A DNA stretch of 29,178 nucleotides, taken from positions 1-29,178 of IMG/VR virus record IMGVR_UViG_3300037070_001213; one strand, written 5' to 3'. Of the stretch, positions 1,279 to 21,197 are shown piece after piece. The stretch is from a virus. The number at the start of each line of letters is the position of its first letter. Position 1 is the first letter of the stretch. The position numbers and the translations under genes are program-made. The notes under the pieces were generated by a model, which saw nothing but the letters and a program-made list of their open reading frames with translations, was not told the origin of the DNA and did not search any database.

Positions 1279-1497
1279 TTAAGACAATCTTTCGTAAGGT
1301 GTTAAAATCTTAATCTTTTGTTCCCAACCGGGTTGCGCCTGCATAATCCATGCACATTTTGCACCTTCGCCGCTCTTTATTCCCGAAACGATACCGGGCG
1401 GCATTTCACCGTTCCTGAGCATTGCGGTAATTCTCTGCTTGACCATGCCGGATGCTTTGGAATATTGGTTAACCGTTACTATTTGCGTCTTTGCCAT
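1279..1497 (-). CDS. Small helix-turn-helix protein (excisionase/MerR-like fold suspected)
   Basis: A 72-residue basic protein. Residues 6-30 (VTVNQYSKASGMVKQRITAM) look like the first helices of an excisionase- or MerR-like HTH, followed by a wing-like turn LRNGEMPPGIVSGIK and a final strand CAWIMQA. The family resemblance is by fold pattern only; I cannot name an ortholog. It has its own host-type promoter ending four bases before the ATG, so the transcript would be leaderless or almost so. It probably regulates the neighbouring replication genes or a lysogeny decision, which is inference from size and position. Confidence 0.6.
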   Translation of the reverse strand: MAKTQIVTVNQYSKASGMVKQRITAMLRNGEMPPGIVSGIKSGEGAKCAWIMQAQPGWEQKIKILTPYERLS

Positions 1498-1501
1498 GCT
1501 G

Positions 1502-1533
1502 CAAAAATAGGCAAATAGTTTCTAATTAGCAAA
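1502..1533 (-). promoter_or_regulatory. Bacteroidota-type promoter for the small HTH gene
   Basis: Read on the minus strand, TTTG (1533-1530), a 20-base spacer and TATTTTTG (1509-1502) match the Bacteroidota consensus TTTG-N19-21-TAnnTTTG exactly. Only four bases (1501-1498) separate the -7 box from the ATG at 1497. The spacer starts with the palindromic core CTAATTAG, reminiscent of the palindrome seen in the two cassette promoters further right. Confidence 0.65.
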
Positions 1534-2698: not shown

Positions 2699-3013
2699 TT
2701 AAAACGGGCAGACAAACCCGCAAATACTGCACTTTGTAGTACCATCTCTAAGAGGCACCCAATCGCACTCGCCGGGGGCGCAAGGCTCATCTTTATCCTT
2801 GCTGGGTCCAATCATAAACAATTCCACCACTTCGCAATTAAGCACATAAGCAACTACTTCAATCGTACTTAATCGCGGGTTGGCTTCACCGCTTTCGAGT
2901 GCAGTCCATGTAGCGCGGCGGATACCGGCTGCCTTGGCTGCTTCGCTTTGTGACAATCCGGCACGTACCCGCTTATCCCTTATTGATCTGGCTAAGGTTA
3001 ATTTAGTCGGCAT
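2699..3013 (-). CDS. XRE/Cro-CI-type HTH regulator with Cys-rich C-terminal tail
   Basis: A 104-residue protein. Residues about 7-65 form a Cro/CI-type helix-turn-helix: IRDKRVRAGLSQSEAAKAAGI, recognition helix RRATWTALESGEANP, then LSTIEVVAYVLNCEVVELF. The tail carries C78, C83, C95, C98 and C102 with a CSIC pair, resembling a small zinc-binding knuckle. This lacks the LexA-type peptidase of large CI repressors, so control would not be by RecA-stimulated self-cleavage. It is a good candidate to bind the palindrome at 3598-3613. The start overlaps the upstream gene by 11 bases. Whether it acts as repressor or Cro-like switch is unknown. Confidence 0.8.
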   Translation of the reverse strand: MPTKLTLARSIRDKRVRAGLSQSEAAKAAGIRRATWTALESGEANPRLSTIEVVAYVLNCEVVELFMIGPSKDKDEPCAPGECDWVPLRDGTTKCSICGFVCPF

Positions 3014-3589: not shown

Positions 3590-3617
3590 CAAAGATAGTA
3601 CGATATACCGTACCAAA
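3590..3617 (-). promoter_or_regulatory. Leftward early promoter with operator-like palindrome
   Basis: On the minus strand a -7 box TATCTTTG (3597-3590) is preceded by the palindrome GTACG-N6-CGTAC (3613-3598) and by TTTG (3617-3614). The palindrome fills the space between the two boxes; the 16-base spacing is shorter than the usual 19-21, so the -33 assignment is tentative. A repressor bound here would block the leftward operon. Confidence 0.5.
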
Positions 3618-11610: not shown

Positions 11611-11626
11611 AGTATTACTTTTGATG

Positions 11627-11698
11627 CGTGGTGTGGCGCAGCGGTAGCGCGACGGGCTCATAATCCGTAGGTCATTGGTTCGATTCCAATCGCCGCAA
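11627..11698 (+). tRNA. tRNA with anticodon CAT, initiator-like features
   Basis: A 72-base cloverleaf: acceptor CGTGGTG (11627-11633) with CGCCGCA (11691-11697); D-arm GCGC/GCGC; anticodon stem ACGGG/TCCGT with loop CTCATAA (anticodon 11659-11661); variable loop of five; T-arm ATTGG-TTCGATT-CCAAT; A73. CCA is not fully encoded. The acceptor's first pair is C1 against A72, and the anticodon stem has G29-G30-G31, both marks of initiator tRNA, although position 11-24 is C-G as in elongators. It may be fMet-like, elongator Met, or Ile2 if C34 is modified. It sits between tail genes within the late operon. Confidence 0.85.
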
Positions 11699-11700
11699 CA

Positions 11701-11807: not shown

Positions 11808-11820
11808 CTACTCTTAAAGG
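11808..11820 (+). promoter_or_regulatory. Repeated late-gene upstream element CTACTCTTAAAGG
   Basis: The 13-mer ends one base before the ATG at 11822. An identical copy lies at 21185-21197 and close variants at 17943-17956 and 18576-18588, each shortly upstream of a gene start. TACTCT could be a -10-like box and AAAGG a Shine-Dalgarno-like sequence. Confidence 0.5.
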
Positions 11821-14957: not shown

Positions 14958-14987
14958 GTTGTATTTGAGATAAAAATGTTATATTTG
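14958..14987 (+). promoter_or_regulatory. Host-type promoter of the HNH gene
   Basis: TATATTTG (14980-14987) matches TAnnTTTG, with GTTG (14958-14961) as a weak -33 element at 18 bases. Only four bases separate the box from the ATG at 14992, the same spacing as for the small HTH gene at 1497, suggesting a leaderless mRNA. Confidence 0.55.
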
Positions 14988-14991
14988 TAAC

Positions 14992-15612
14992 ATGGAAAAA
15001 TATAACAGATTGACAGTGTTGGAAGTTGTTGGACACGACAAAACACATAGAAAAATAGTAAGGTGTATCTGCGATTGCGGGAAAGAATATGTAGGGGATT
15101 ATTATAGGATAAAAACGGGGGGGACGGGGTCATGTGGGTGCTTAAGGCTCGGTCATAAACGGACGGTAAAACACGGGTTAATGCATTCCCCTATTTACAG
15201 GGTTTGGGCTTGTATGAAGCAAAGGTGTTACTATGAAAAGGCTGATAACTATTGTAATTATGGTGGGCGTGGAATTACTGTTTGCGGTGAATGGAGGAAT
15301 GATCCAAAATGCTTTTATGATTGGATGGTGGCGAATGGTTGGCGGGTGGGGCTGCAAATAGACAGGATTGACAATGAAAAAAACTATTGTCCTGAAAATT
15401 GCAGATTGGTTACACCAAAGGAAAATGCATTTAACAGGAGAGACACGATAAGGGTAGAAAAAGATGGGAAATGGTATTCACTTAAGAACTATTGTGAAAC
15501 ATTCGGGTTAAAGTATGAACCAATTATTCAAAGAATGTGTAGGCTGAATTGGTCAATTGAAAGGGCGTTGTCAACCCCTATTGAGAAGCGAACAAAAAGA
15601 AAAAAGGATTAG
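14992..15612 (+). CDS. Free-standing HNH homing endonuclease
   Basis: A 206-residue protein of a recognised phage layout. The N-terminal zinc-ribbon-like part has C25, C27 and C29 in VRCICDCG and C48/C50 in SCGC. The middle carries HGLMHSPIYRVWACMKQRC and YGGRGITVCGEW, and the HNH core QIDRIDNEKNYCPENCRLVT (122-141) with N148 in NAFNRR. A C-terminal helix-turn-helix-like segment (KNYCETFGLKYEPIIQRM) may help target binding. Such enzymes nick specific phage DNA and spread by homing. It has its own host-type promoter and sits between two tail genes that it does not interrupt. Confidence 0.85.
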   Translation: MEKYNRLTVLEVVGHDKTHRKIVRCICDCGKEYVGDYYRIKTGGTGSCGCLRLGHKRTVKHGLMHSPIYRVWACMKQRCYYEKADNYCNYGGRGITVCGEWRNDPKCFYDWMVANGWRVGLQIDRIDNEKNYCPENCRLVTPKENAFNRRDTIRVEKDGKWYSLKNYCETFGLKYEPIIQRMCRLNWSIERALSTPIEKRTKRKKD

Positions 15613-17269: not shown

Positions 17270-17300
17270 TTTCTAAATAGAAAAATATATCTTACCTTTG
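17270..17300 (+). promoter_or_regulatory. Cassette promoter with palindrome at -33 (plus strand)
   Basis: TTTC (17270-17273), 19 bases, TACCTTTG (17293-17300) form a host-type promoter. The -33 element is the left half of the perfect 14-base palindrome TTTCTAAATAGAAA (17270-17283). The 18-mer TTCTAAATAGAAAAATAT at 17271-17288 is repeated exactly at 21089-21106 in the promoter of the minus-strand cassette. Confidence 0.65.
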
Positions 17301-17316
17301 GCAAAACTATAAAAAC

Positions 17317-17547
17317 ATGATTACAGTAACACTTGGCGAAGTTAAACCTCAGGAAAAGGGTTTTCCTAAATTGATGAAAGGAAGTGACGGAAATATTTTT
17401 TACATGGTCAGGGAAAGGTATGGCCTCCCGTTGACGGATGCAGATGAAACGATATGGAGGTTTGCTAATAGCGATTTTGCAGATTTTAGCAAAAATTATA
17501 GAACCTTCACCGATTACGATCTTCCCATCACCATTCAAAATTCTTAA
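17317..17547 (+). CDS. Hypothetical protein, 76 residues (cassette gene 1)
   Basis: Starts MITVTLGEVKPQEKGFPKLM; short strands, an aromatic turn (GNIFYMVRERYGLPLTDADE) and a helix with IWRFANSDFADFSKNY, ending LPITIQNS. No family recognised. It is the first gene after the host-type promoter at 17270 and is followed one base later by the second cassette gene. It does not look like a virion protein. Position between tape measure and protease genes, with own promoter and terminator, makes it a moron-type accessory gene. Confidence 0.6.
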   Translation: MITVTLGEVKPQEKGFPKLMKGSDGNIFYMVRERYGLPLTDADETIWRFANSDFADFSKNYRTFTDYDLPITIQNS

Positions 17548-17548
17548 C

Positions 17549-17860
17549 ATGGCCAAATCCGAAAAAGTAATTGACCTGATTAATAAACACTTTGCCGAAG
17601 TAAAAGCCTGCTATTCAGATAAGATTTATGGTGTTGAAAAGTTGCTTACAGAAAGGATTGAACGAATTGAAGATAGGCTTTACGCCGTTTCTACTATGGC
17701 GCCAACCGAAAAAAAAGAATGGATTGTAATTTATACAAAACTTGGTAAGCAGTATTGCTTAGGCGATGTTTTTGAAAGCCCGGACTTAGCACATAAGGCG
17801 GCTGGCAATATGGGGGCGTATTATAATCCAACCGTTCACGAAATTACCATTATCGAGTAA
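17549..17860 (+). CDS. Hypothetical protein, 103 residues (cassette gene 2)
   Basis: From the ATG at 17549 the product is MAKSEKVIDLINKHFAEVKA..., with an amphipathic helix GVEKLLTERIERIEDRLYAV (about residues 28-48) and a mixed alpha/beta tail (EWIVIYTKLGKQYCLG, HKAAGNMGAYYNP, VHEITIIE). A longer frame from 17438 would overlap the previous gene in another frame and is rejected. The helix-plus-strand layout fits a small dimeric protein. No function known. A strong terminator follows 23 bases after the stop. Confidence 0.6.
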   Translation: MAKSEKVIDLINKHFAEVKACYSDKIYGVEKLLTERIERIEDRLYAVSTMAPTEKKEWIVIYTKLGKQYCLGDVFESPDLAHKAAGNMGAYYNPTVHEITIIE

Positions 17861-17883
17861 ACCAATACTACCCGCTTAAATGC

Positions 17884-17910
17884 ACCCCTGCCAATTCGGC
17901 GGGGGTTTTT
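17884..17910 (+). terminator. Strong rho-independent terminator closing the cassette
   Basis: ACCCCTGCC (17884-17892), loop AATTC, GGCGGGGGT (17898-17906) give a 9-bp stem followed by TTTTT (17906-17910). It ends the two-gene cassette. The next gene's true start at 17958 lies downstream, so an ATG at 17880 in that frame is rejected. Confidence 0.8.
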
Positions 17911-17942
17911 CATTTTCTACCTTAACCCAAACCACTACCTAC

Positions 17943-17956
17943 CTACTCTTAATGGG
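17943..17956 (+). promoter_or_regulatory. Late-gene upstream element (CTACTCTTAATGGG)
   Basis: One-mismatch variant of the repeated CTACTCTTAAAGG, ending one base before the ATG at 17958 and following a strong terminator, so transcription must restart here or read through. The upstream CCAAACC stretch, about 10 bases before TACTC, also resembles that at 21185. Confidence 0.45.
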
Positions 17957-17957
17957 T

Positions 17958-18548
17958 ATGGCGAAGGATTTACCCGTTTTTTTATTGGAAATTGACGAAG
18001 CCGGCGATTCGGATTTGGAAGTAAACTATGTGGCAATGGTGGATAAACCTGCCATTGAAAGTAACTGGACAGCCTTTACCGAGGCTATTCCTTTGGGCTT
18101 TGCCGTAACCAATGAAGATGAACAGATCCTAATCGGGGCGGCAATGATTCCCGATAAGCTAATTTACAGGAATGAACCGGGAATAGGTGAGTTCTTTGTA
18201 AAGTTTGACCGGCCTACCATTGAAAAGATAGCCCTGAAATTCTTTGAAAACGGTTACCAAAAGAATGTAAACCTGATGCACAGCGCCGACCATCAATTGC
18301 CGGGCGTTACTTTTTTCCAATCATTTATACAGGATAAAGCAAAAGGCGTACCCGGTATGCCCGGCGATTACCCGGATGGCACATGGTTTTTGGGCGCAAA
18401 GGTGAATAATCCGCAAGCCTGGCAGCTTGTAAAGGATGGCAAAGTAAAGGGCTGGAGCGTGGAAGGGATGTTTAAATACAAGCGCAAACAGCAAACCAAA
18501 GCCGAAATATTTGACCAAATCGGTTCACTACTTGAAAATATTTTATAA
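17958..18548 (+). CDS. XkdF-like prohead protease
   Basis: A 197-residue protein from the ATG at 17958. It follows the XkdF/Peptidase_S78-like pattern known from PBSX-type and Bacteroidota phages: EVNYVAMVDKPAIESNW (21-37), IGAAMIPDKLIYR (59-71), a central NLMHSADHQ (H108) that would supply the catalytic His, a short F-Q-S-F segment with S122 as candidate Ser, and GWSVEGMF (165-172) near the end. It probably trims the scaffold and capsid proteins during head maturation. It stands just before the scaffold-like and capsid genes. The catalytic assignments are by pattern only. Confidence 0.75.
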   Translation: MAKDLPVFLLEIDEAGDSDLEVNYVAMVDKPAIESNWTAFTEAIPLGFAVTNEDEQILIGAAMIPDKLIYRNEPGIGEFFVKFDRPTIEKIALKFFENGYQKNVNLMHSADHQLPGVTFFQSFIQDKAKGVPGMPGDYPDGTWFLGAKVNNPQAWQLVKDGKVKGWSVEGMFKYKRKQQTKAEIFDQIGSLLENIL

Positions 18549-18575
18549 ATCTATTTTAACCTATTCTCAATTTAT

Positions 18576-18588
18576 CAACTCTTTAAGG
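18576..18588 (+). promoter_or_regulatory. Late-gene upstream element (CAACTCTTTAAGG)
   Basis: Eleven of thirteen bases match CTACTCTTAAAGG, and the distance to the ATG at 18590 is the same as at 11822. It separates the protease gene from the scaffold-like gene. Confidence 0.4.
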
Positions 18589-18589
18589 T

Positions 18590-19129
18590 ATGGCAGAAAC
18601 TAAAAATGAAATTTTAAACAAAATCAAAGTCTTTTTAGGACTTGCTGAGGAAACATCACCAGCCTTCACTTTAGCCGATGGTACGCCGATTGAGGTTAGC
18701 GCCTTAGAAGTAGGCGGTACGGTTATGATTGGCGGCGCTGCTGCACCTGCCGGGGAATATACCCTATCCGATGGTCAAACATTGGTAGTTGATGAAACAG
18801 GGCTTATTACCGCTTTAAACGCATTGCCTACCGAAATGACAGAGCCACCCGCCGAAGAGGCCGCACCACCTGTATCACAGGCAACCATTGAGCAAATGGT
18901 AAAGGAAGCGGTAACCGCTGCGGTTGGTGCGCAAATGGAAAAATATACGGCTGCACTTGCCAAACAGGAAGGCGCAAATAAAATGTTAGTAGGATTGATG
19001 GAAGAGGTTTTAAAAACTCCAACCGTTGAGCCTGAAAAACCAAAGCAAACATTTACCAAAGCACAACCTGAAAGCAAAAATGAAAGGTTTGGCCGGATCG
19101 CAAAAACATTAGAAACACTTAAAAATTAA
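18590..19129 (+). CDS. Scaffold-like head assembly protein
   Basis: A 179-residue acidic protein. The N-terminal helix (EILNKIKVFLGLAEE) is followed by two short ADGT..V..LEVGG / LSDGQTLVVDETG strands, a repeat of the kind found near scaffolds of Bacteroidota phages. Then comes an Ala/Pro/Glu-rich linker and a helical tail (IEQMVKEAVTAAVGAQMEKY, MLVGLMEEVLK, RFGRIAKTLETLK). Position directly between the protease and the major capsid protein is where scaffold genes lie. Likely cleaved by the protease; the scaffold role is inferred. Confidence 0.6.
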   Translation: MAETKNEILNKIKVFLGLAEETSPAFTLADGTPIEVSALEVGGTVMIGGAAAPAGEYTLSDGQTLVVDETGLITALNALPTEMTEPPAEEAAPPVSQATIEQMVKEAVTAAVGAQMEKYTAALAKQEGANKMLVGLMEEVLKTPTVEPEKPKQTFTKAQPESKNERFGRIAKTLETLKN

Positions 19130-19134
19130 TAACG

Positions 19135-20100
19135 ATGGCATTTTCAGTAGGAACTTTAGCCGATTACACCAGGCAGAATGTTGATCTTCTTGTTTCCGCT
19201 TCGCACTTCGATGCGAAAACACAGCAACTCATTCTGAATGAGGGCAATGTAATGACTAAGGTAAAATCGTCCGAAACGATTAACATCCTTAGCAATACCC
19301 CATTTTTCCAGGCAGATACAACCTGCGGGTTTAATGCATCCGGAACAACTGCTATTACTCAAAGGGTGGTAACCGTTGGCCCGTGGAAAGTGCAGGAAGC
19401 CTTTTGCGAAAAAGACCTGAATGCAAAGTACACACAGGAAGCATTGAAGGCGGGCAGCTCAAATGAGGATTTGCCTTTTGAGGAAAAAATTACCGGCGAA
19501 ATTGCAAGCGGTATCGCAGAGGCTTTGGAAGTTGCAATTTGGCAAGCAGACACAGCAGGCAGCGCAGGTTCAAACGGCCTGATGAATAAGTTTGACGGGA
19601 TTTTGAAACTGCTTAATGCGGCTTCGGGTTCGGTTGTTCAAGCCAATGCAAGCGGTTATACCGGACTGGTTCCTGTAACCGGTGGCATCACAGCTTCAAA
19701 CGCCGTAGCCGTAACCAATGCAATGTGGAAAGCATTGCCCGCAAAAGTGAAAGGCAAATCGGATGTTCGCATTTTTGTTGGATGGGATGTATTTGAAACC
19801 TTAATCGGTGCGTACATTGCCCTTAACCTGTTTCATTACGATGCGGATCGTACTTCCGGGGAATTTATCATACCGGGTACAAATTACCGGATTACGGCGG
19901 TGCATGGTTTGGATAATACTAATCGCATGGTTGGTATAAGAATGTCAAACCTGTTTTTAGGTACGGACCTGGAAGGCGAGGAAAACAAGTTTAAGATTTG
20001 GTATTCGGATGATGACATGAACGTGAAACTTCATGCAGCCGCAAAAATCGGGGTTAACTTTGCTTTCCCTGGTGAGATTGTGAACTTTATTTTAGCTTAA
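19135..20100 (+). CDS. Major capsid protein
   Basis: A 321-residue protein of capsid-like size directly after the scaffold-like gene. It begins MAFSVGTLADYTRQNVDLLV and contains a long helix-rich section (EEKITGEIASGIAEALEVAI), a segment KGKSDVRIFVGWDVFETLIG, and an end AAKIGVNFAFPGEIVNFILA. This is the pattern of the HK97-like major capsid proteins of Bacteroidota phages as I recall them; the N-terminus is not obviously a removable delta domain. It is followed by a hairpin at 20107-20124. High abundance would fit its codon regularity, but this was not computed. Confidence 0.75.
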   Translation: MAFSVGTLADYTRQNVDLLVSASHFDAKTQQLILNEGNVMTKVKSSETINILSNTPFFQADTTCGFNASGTTAITQRVVTVGPWKVQEAFCEKDLNAKYTQEALKAGSSNEDLPFEEKITGEIASGIAEALEVAIWQADTAGSAGSNGLMNKFDGILKLLNAASGSVVQANASGYTGLVPVTGGITASNAVAVTNAMWKALPAKVKGKSDVRIFVGWDVFETLIGAYIALNLFHYDADRTSGEFIIPGTNYRITAVHGLDNTNRMVGIRMSNLFLGTDLEGEENKFKIWYSDDDMNVKLHAAAKIGVNFAFPGEIVNFILA

Positions 20101-20106
20101 TTAAAT

Positions 20107-20124
20107 GGCCGGGTAACTCCGGCC
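20107..20124 (+). other. GC-rich hairpin after the capsid gene
   Basis: GGCCGG (20107-20112), loop GTAACT, CCGGCC (20119-20124), a perfect 6-bp stem, followed by TTAATATCTTTT. It may act as a weak terminator or as a 3' stabiliser that raises capsid mRNA relative to the downstream gene. Confidence 0.55.
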
Positions 20125-20140
20125 TTAATATCTTTTCAAT

Positions 20141-20659
20141 ATGGCGTGTGCAATAACATCAGGAATAACGCTGGATTGCCGGGACTCAATGGGAGGGCTA
20201 AAGGAAGTTTACCTTATAGCACTTGCCGATGTTTCCAGCTTTGTAGTAGCTTCCGGCGTGGTGACAGGAATAACTAAGGCAAGCGGCAAAAGGTTCTATA
20301 AATTTGAACATCTGCCACAAACAGCGGATTACACAGACGAGCCAACCGGGTCAGATGAAAACGGTTCAATCTTCTTTGCGCAAACCCTGAACATGCAGCT
20401 CAATAAAATGAATGCTGCAACTCGCAACATGGTGAAACTATTGGCCGCAAACCGGGTAATAGCGATTACGCTTGACCGGAACGGAACCGCAATGATGTTG
20501 GGTGCAACAATGGGGCTTTCGACTAATAGCGGGCCTGGTGGTAGCGGACGGGCTTTCGGGGATCACAACGGTTACAAGCCGGTATTAACAGGGGCGGAAC
20601 CTGAACCTGCCTATGAGGTTAATTCAACGGTTTACAGCGCACTTGAAACACCGGGTTAA
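20141..20659 (+). CDS. Probable major tail tube protein or other abundant virion protein
   Basis: A 172-residue protein. It starts MACAITSGITLDCRDSMGGL, then KEVYLIALADVSSFVV, a beta-rich first half with GKRFYKFEHLPQTA and an asparagine-rich helix (QLNKMNAATRNMVKLLA), and ends with a Gly-rich segment. The IT.G..LDCRDS.GG.K.VYL start resembles abundant virion proteins annotated as tail tube in Bacteroidota phages. The location between capsid and portal is not the canonical place for a tail tube gene, so the assignment is uncertain. A terminator (20699-20733) follows. Confidence 0.55.
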   Translation: MACAITSGITLDCRDSMGGLKEVYLIALADVSSFVVASGVVTGITKASGKRFYKFEHLPQTADYTDEPTGSDENGSIFFAQTLNMQLNKMNAATRNMVKLLAANRVIAITLDRNGTAMMLGATMGLSTNSGPGGSGRAFGDHNGYKPVLTGAEPEPAYEVNSTVYSALETPG

Positions 20660-20698
20660 TTTGGTTTATAGTTTTAAAAGGGTTATAAGGAATATTTT

Positions 20699-20733
20699 AC
20701 CTCCTGCGTTTCTACGTGGGAGGTTTTGTTTTT
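20699..20733 (+). terminator. Rho-independent terminator (plus strand)
   Basis: ACCTCCTGCG (20699-20708), loop TTTCTA, CGTGGGAGGT (20715-20724) make a 10-bp stem (two G-T pairs), followed by TTTGTTTTT. Ends the capsid/tail-tube transcript and faces the terminator of the minus-strand gene at 20751. Confidence 0.8.
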
Positions 20734-20750
20734 AGGTGTTTCGCGCAAAC

Positions 20751-20779
20751 CAAAAACCCCTAACCTTTCGATTAGGGGT
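20751..20779 (-). terminator. Rho-independent terminator (minus strand)
   Basis: In minus-strand reading ACCCCTAA (20779-20772) pairs with TTAGGGGT (20763-20756) across an 8-base loop, followed by TTTTTG (from 20756 downward). An 8-bp perfect stem with a U-run ends the transcript of the gene at 20813-21031. Confidence 0.75.
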
Positions 20780-20812
20780 AAACCCTCAGACTTAGCGGGA
20801 ACTACGGGTTGT

Positions 20813-21031
20813 TTAATTATTTTGCAACTGTTGAAATCCTTCCCAATGTGCCAATACCCTTTCGCATGCGTACGCTTGCCCGCACTTACCTTTATTTGCA
20901 ATCATGTGTATTCCGGTCTTTTCGCTTATCATGTACCACAGGTATTCGCCTTTGCCAATAACTACATACATTTCGCAGCCATTGCCTCTTCCCCAAATAA
21001 GACCTTTTGATTTAATTTCTTGAGTTGTCAT
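20813..21031 (-). CDS. Minus-strand single-gene cassette, hypothetical protein of 72 residues
   Basis: Starts MTTQEIKSKGLIWGRGNGCE; strands MYVVIGKGEYLWYMIS and GIHMIANKGKC, then a helix YACERVLAHWEGFQQLQ. It has two Cys and six aromatic residues, likely a small globular domain. No family recognised. It lies against the direction of all surrounding late genes, with a host-type promoter on the far side (21072-21101) and its own terminator, the hallmark arrangement of a moron. It shares a promoter palindrome with the cassette at 17270. A role in lysogeny or superinfection exclusion is conceivable but unsupported by sequence. Confidence 0.65.
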   Translation of the reverse strand: MTTQEIKSKGLIWGRGNGCEMYVVIGKGEYLWYMISEKTGIHMIANKGKCGQAYACERVLAHWEGFQQLQNN

Positions 21032-21071
21032 TTTGCTAAGTTTTCGTTATCGCTTCATTGCTATAACAGTA

Positions 21072-21101
21072 CAAAGATAAGGGGATTATTCTAAATAGAA
21101 A
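21072..21101 (-). promoter_or_regulatory. Cassette promoter with palindrome at -33 (minus strand)
   Basis: Minus-strand TTTC (21101-21098), 18 bases, TATCTTTG (21079-21072). The -33 box overlaps the palindrome TTCTAAATAGAA (21089-21100), and the adjoining 18-mer TTCTAAATAGAAAAATAT (21089-21106) equals 17271-17288. Confidence 0.65.
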
Positions 21102-21184
21102 AATATTTAGGCAATTATTTTAGAACTATTTTTTACAACTGAAACAATGTTTCAAAATCTGTTTTTATCCAAAACCTCTTTTCT

Positions 21185-21197
21185 CTACTCTTAAAGG
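21185..21197 (+). promoter_or_regulatory. Repeated late-gene upstream element CTACTCTTAAAGG
   Basis: Exact copy of the 13-mer at 11808-11820, five bases before the ATG at 21203 and right after the minus-strand cassette. The surroundings (TCCAAAACC nine bases before TACTC) resemble those at 17943. Confidence 0.5.

Follow-up and report, generated by a model that had tools for sequence, protein, structure and literature searches.

Two small gene units interrupt the structural region of an environmental Bacteroidota phage, read in opposite directions, and carry the same 18-base sequence at their promoters. Are they independent passengers, or a set that is switched together, and if so by which protein?

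Two accessory cassettes at junctions of the structural region

The window analysed here (the whole stretch of DNA, a 29,178-base virus record) is probably a fragment; related records are longer, at 33-39 kb. Its head and tail genes are conserved and run rightward, with small leftward genes at the left end. Relatives were collected through their capsid and portal proteins, and the gene order common to them is tape measure, protease, scaffold, MCP, g172, g124, portal. Between these genes the window carries two additional units, laid out as follows.

17270-17300, plus strand: cassette 1 host-type promoter, TTTC-19-TACCTTTG (TTTC at 17270-17273, -7 box at 17293-17300)
17271-17282: putative operator copy 1, TTCTAAATAGAA, with the dyad TTCTA-N2-TAGAA overlapping the -33 box
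17317-17547, plus strand: cassette 1 gene p1, 76 aa, matching phrog_34898 (an unknown-function family; E 1.2e-6)
17549-17860, plus strand: cassette 1 gene p2, 103 aa, no family match
17884-17906, plus strand: cassette 1 intrinsic terminator, predicted from sequence
20699-20724, plus strand: terminator closing the capsid operon
20756-20779, minus strand: cassette 2 intrinsic terminator, predicted from sequence
20813-21031, minus strand: cassette 2 gene (mg), 72 aa, an ORF with homologues in four contigs
21072-21101, minus strand: cassette 2 host-type promoter, TTTC-18-TATCTTTG (TTTC at 21101-21098, -7 box at 21079-21072)
21089-21100: putative operator copy 2, the same dyad as copy 1, overlapping the -33 box

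The p2 gene likely starts at 17549, the longer frame at 17438-17860 being an over-extension. The first-pass annotation had proposed that such units would be present or absent as wholes in related phages, and this is what the comparison returned: relatives L003 and L004 lack both, with the flanking genes conserved. The tape measure-protease junction, which holds cassette 1, spans about 40 bases in L003 and L004 against about 700 in the window, and the g172-g124 junction, which holds cassette 2, spans 62 and 98 bases in L003 and L004, respectively, against 544. The second unit is likewise absent from L009, and p1 from the gene-order relatives. In L008, whose portal is the most similar among the relatives (70% identity), the second junction is occupied by other minus-strand genes under their own TATCTTTG promoter, and several distant relatives have other inserts at this junction or nearby ones. 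The capsid-operon terminator has a counterpart at the same junction in the relatives examined. The cassettes, whose genes are short, have a GC content of 0.38-0.40, and the capsid block one of 0.45. Because relatives lack both units and L008 has different genes at the same place, the two are, as judged from sequence comparison, inserted accessory cassettes at a docking point in use.

In the distant relatives L039, L055, L061 and L078, the protease-scaffold junction also holds an insert, about 2-2.7 kb long and containing minus-strand ORFs. Within the window, an HNH endonuclease gene (14980-15612) sits between two structural genes under its own TATATTTG promoter and is probably another inserted unit.

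Searches offer few clues to what the cassettes encode. Neither p1 nor p2 has relatives in the viral contigs or phages searched. The cassette 2 protein has none in phages or genome contigs, no significant fold match (best E 0.18) and no match to a defence family. Its gene has homologues in L005-L007 (66-68% identity) and L210 (73%), which all lie in other gene contexts, each under a TATATTTG-type promoter of its own. In L210, an inverted repeat resembling an integron attC site lies upstream of the homologue, at about 2728-2855.

How the cassettes are transcribed relative to their neighbours can be judged from elements that precede the late genes.

11616-11699: tRNA-Met unit, with the gene at 11627-11699 and its own host-type promoter, TTTG-19-TACTTTTG
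11809-11820: late element copy, upstream half weak
17944-17955, plus strand: phage-type late element TACTCTTAATGG, before the protease gene and directly 3' of cassette 1
21186-21197, plus strand: phage-type late element TACTCTTAAAGG, before gene 21203 and directly 3' of the cassette 2 slot

The late element TACTCTTAANGG thus occurs three times in the window (at 11809, 17944 and 21186; 0.01 expected), each time directly before a late gene and twice just downstream of a cassette slot. A CCYAAAMC motif lies 10-11 bases further upstream, and the two together recur before the same genes in L004, at 2908 and 5718, and in L008, at 2181. The extended element, CCYAAAMC-N10-TACTCTTA(ANGG), stands 13-17 bases 5' of late-gene start codons and would be a phage-type late promoter rather than a host-type one, giving very short or absent leaders. 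Downstream of the tRNA-Met gene, of each window cassette and of the L008 cassette there is one such element, which supports separate transcription of the inserts. Furthermore, since each cassette has its own host-type promoter and its own terminator, it is predicted to be transcribed apart from the structural operons. The terminators described as strong in the first-pass annotation are present for both units, at 17884-17906 on the plus strand and 20779-20756 on the minus strand.

A short dyad in register at three promoters

The Bacteroidota promoter consensus is TTTG / TAHHTTTG, with transcription starting 4-5 bases downstream (PMC6847099). The -7 boxes of both cassettes, TACCTTTG and TATCTTTG, fit TAHHTTTG, and the proposed pair of Bacteroidota-type promoters, reading in opposite directions at the two 18-mer copies, holds as a consensus match at both. 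Exact copies of the 18-mer TTCTAAATAGAAAAATAT do stand at 17271-17288 and 21089-21106. The window has no longer exact repeat, and no further site at up to three mismatches (0.06 expected). Nonetheless, some exact 18-mer repeat arose in 5 of 60 first-order Markov shuffles of the window, so repetition alone is weak evidence and the position at promoters is what matters.

Position narrows the shared element. The AAAATAT tail of the 18-mer follows the dyad in one promoter and precedes it in the other, and only the dyad therefore keeps a common promoter register. Within TTCTAAATAGAA, the perfect dyad is TTCTA-N2-TAGAA only (10 of 12 positions). Of the earlier proposal of a palindrome common to both -33 regions, the in-register 12-bp dyad stands, while the full 18-mer is not shared in promoter orientation. 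A scan of the whole window, which had been suggested as a check, located two perfect sites and one with a single mismatch, all at host-type promoters. The third, overlooked in the first-pass annotation and the only one-mismatch copy in the window, lies at a small gene near the left end.

1279-1497, minus strand: 72-aa putative DNA-binding protein, candidate regulator (weak Phage_Cox match, E 0.016; phrog_575, Cox-like, E 0.029)
1502-1533, minus strand: host-type promoter of this HTH gene, TTTG-20-TATTTTTG (consensus match)
1520-1531: putative operator copy 3, TTCTAATTAGCA, one mismatch, in the same register as copies 1 and 2

On the minus strand, the third site reads TGCTAATTAGAA, then 10 bases, then TATTTTTG. 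Between dyad and -7 box there are accordingly 10, 9 and 10 bases in the promoters with boxes at 17293, 21079 and 1509. In simulations, two of the seven host-type promoters had the same perfect 5-N2-5 dyad in register with a probability of about 1.8e-4, and a third promoter carried the dyad at no more than one mismatch, also in register, with one of about 3e-3; these are post hoc figures for seven promoters of one genome and an A+T-rich dyad. Because the three promoters share one short palindrome, the dyad is probably an operator common to them, and the cassettes and the HTH gene would be switched together.

The operator appears to belong to this phage and not to the gene family, since the dyad is missing from the promoters of the cassette 2 gene homologues in L005-L007 and L210. 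Viral contigs were also scanned with the pattern TTCTAnnTAGAA-N8-11-TAnnTTTG. Among the matches listed, most were coding, and the intergenic ones favoured a spacing of 10 and came from few gene families (L093/L171; L102/L156/L160). In these five contigs, TTCTAnnTAGAA-N10-TAnnTTTG stands before genes and inside larger dyads, for example TATTTAGAA-N3-TTCTAAATA in L160. We do not count these matches as support, because few families are involved and their dyad forms part of a longer one.

A candidate regulator

Two phage HTH genes, at 1279-1497 and 2699-3013, had been put forward as possible regulators, and only the former fits the palindrome. The promoter of the 1279-1497 gene carries it, whereas the leftward operon promoter of the 104-aa HTH gene (2699-3013) has a different palindrome, GTACGATATACCGTAC at 3598-3613, in the spacer that separates its -33 box from its -7 box. 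This second sequence has no other copy in the window and is probably the putative operator of the 104-aa protein itself. The different palindrome makes the 104-aa protein the less likely regulator. Together with the site at its own promoter, this leaves the 72-aa protein as the leading candidate for binding TTCTA-N2-TAGAA, and the third site would give it an autoregulation logic.

The 72-aa protein resembles Cox/excisionase-type regulators (PF10743, phrog_575) in its size, its weak profile match and the putative operator at its own promoter. It departs from them in that its matches fall below curated cut-offs (15.5 bits against PF10743, Phage_Cox, for a cut-off of 27.5) and in that no integrase was found in the fragment. 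No relatives of the protein were detected in viral contigs, phages or plasmids, and its single-sequence structure model (pLDDT 43) is unusable. Under the consensus rule, the transcript start coincides with the ATG at 1497, which predicts a leaderless mRNA, a type that is unusual in Flavobacterium (PMC6847099).

The integrase result also bears on lifestyle. Expression of the cassettes in a lysogen, as earlier suggested, is unsupported: the window has no integrase, and 15 of the 17 longer relatives are without one (it is present in 2 of 17). A temperate lifestyle may still be compatible with these data, because the record is a fragment.

An SOS box at a sister cassette

The L008 cassette (1246-2195) comprises minus-strand ORFs of 66, 133 and 60 aa, and its promoter holds CTAAACTATTTAG on its own strand, an exact CTAA-N5-TTAG. 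This sequence and GGA-N5-TCC are SOS boxes of the Bacteroidota non-canonical LexA (PMC8565304). Across 880 kb of related loci plus the window, the L008 box is the only CTAA-N5-TTAG in an intergenic host-type promoter; the other matches fall mostly at one conserved place in the portal coding sequence. The window itself has no CTAA-N5-TTAG, and its GGA-N5-TCC matches lie only at 19663 and 24047, none at the three dyad promoters.

Like the sites of the LexA regulon (PMC8565304), the window dyad is short, A+T-rich and overlaps a TAnnTTTG promoter, and the L008 cassette, which occupies the same slot, carries the SOS box itself. Unlike them, TTCTA-N2-TAGAA has its own sequence and spacing. Given this different spacing and the lack of SOS boxes at the cassettes, we do not file the dyad under SOS.

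Discussion

We propose that two accessory (moron) cassettes have entered the structural region at junctions between operons, and that each would be transcribed by the main sigma factor of the host, apart from the structural operons at their phage-type element. At each of three promoters, a dimeric regulator would cover the -33 box and spacer by binding TTCTA-N2-TAGAA. A dyad in this position is typical of a repressor. The first-pass annotation had left repressor and activator side by side; the shared in-register palindrome stands, and its overlap with the -33 box favours repression, so the regulator is probably a repressor. In the simplest model, the 72-aa Cox-like HTH protein would repress its own gene and both cassettes, whose products would then appear in a burst when that protein is lacking, as just after infection, or has been displaced, and would not form part of late expression. 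While the insertions, the consensus promoters and terminators and the in-register dyad can be read directly from the DNA, the binding of a protein to the dyad, its identity with the 72-aa product and repression as the outcome are what we infer from them. For the model as a whole, co-regulation of host-sigma moron cassettes with the HTH gene through the dyad and with the 72-aa repressor as simplest regulator, we see roughly an even chance.

The same operator could instead answer to a host repressor, or to a phage protein encoded beyond the 29-kb fragment, with the cassettes still morons. The host SOS box of the sister cassette in L008 is a precedent for host control (PMC8565304), the record is shorter than its 33-39 kb relatives, and the 72-aa protein is without detectable relatives. 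Yet the dyad is neither of the known Bacteroidota SOS boxes and its third site falls at a regulator-like gene of the phage itself, and we regard an outside regulator as somewhat unlikely. If chance alone had given A+T-rich spacers a common palindrome, the cassettes would be independent, unregulated morons. Exact 18-mers do recur in shuffled windows, as noted above, and the same region of F. johnsoniae promoters tends to hold A+T-rich tracts, at -18 and -28 (PMC6847099). The simulated probabilities of in-register sharing and the absence of any other site within one mismatch in the window nonetheless make coincidence distinctly improbable. Hardest to sustain is a recombination or boundary seam, in which the 18-mer would be a direct repeat at the ends of an exchanged block of 17.3-21.1 kb. 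On the plus strand the 18-mer does have the same orientation at both sites in spite of the opposed genes, and the position of its AAAATAT tail relative to the promoter differs between the two. However, similarity stops at the 18-mer on both sides, relatives show no break between the capsid block and its flanks, and the third site, 16 kb away, is again at a promoter and in register, all of which renders a seam very improbable.

The units come close to known morons, accessory loci with their own promoter and terminator (Juhala 2000 and Cumby 2012, as cited in PMC7067206). Like morons, the cassettes add small genes between conserved structural ones, are missing from relatives and have host-type promoters and terminators by consensus match, and one lies antisense to lytic genes. 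Unlike morons, two separate cassettes appear to share an operator with a third, regulator-like gene. The units are thus ordinary in kind, the sequence supports the shared operator well, and a three-unit regulon is plausible: a modest but testable extension of the moron idea. A broader version, in which a small HTH protein of the phage runs a dispersed regulon of cassettes with host-type promoters, captured at late-operon junctions, through a phage-specific operator while the sister-phage cassette of the same slot is wired to the host SOS box, is speculative, and we are inclined to doubt it; if true, accessory genes gated by stress or by a regulator could be exchanged at such junction slots.

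In this little-studied group, one or two proteins and short DNA fragments are enough for a direct test of whether accessory genes are expressed under regulation. The SOS box in L008 suggests that occupants of the slot can, if it is functional, be gated by host DNA damage. If our model is true, the structural-region junction works as an exchangeable slot, and the accessory genes of an environmental Bacteroidota phage would be co-regulated as a set and not merely constitutive passengers.
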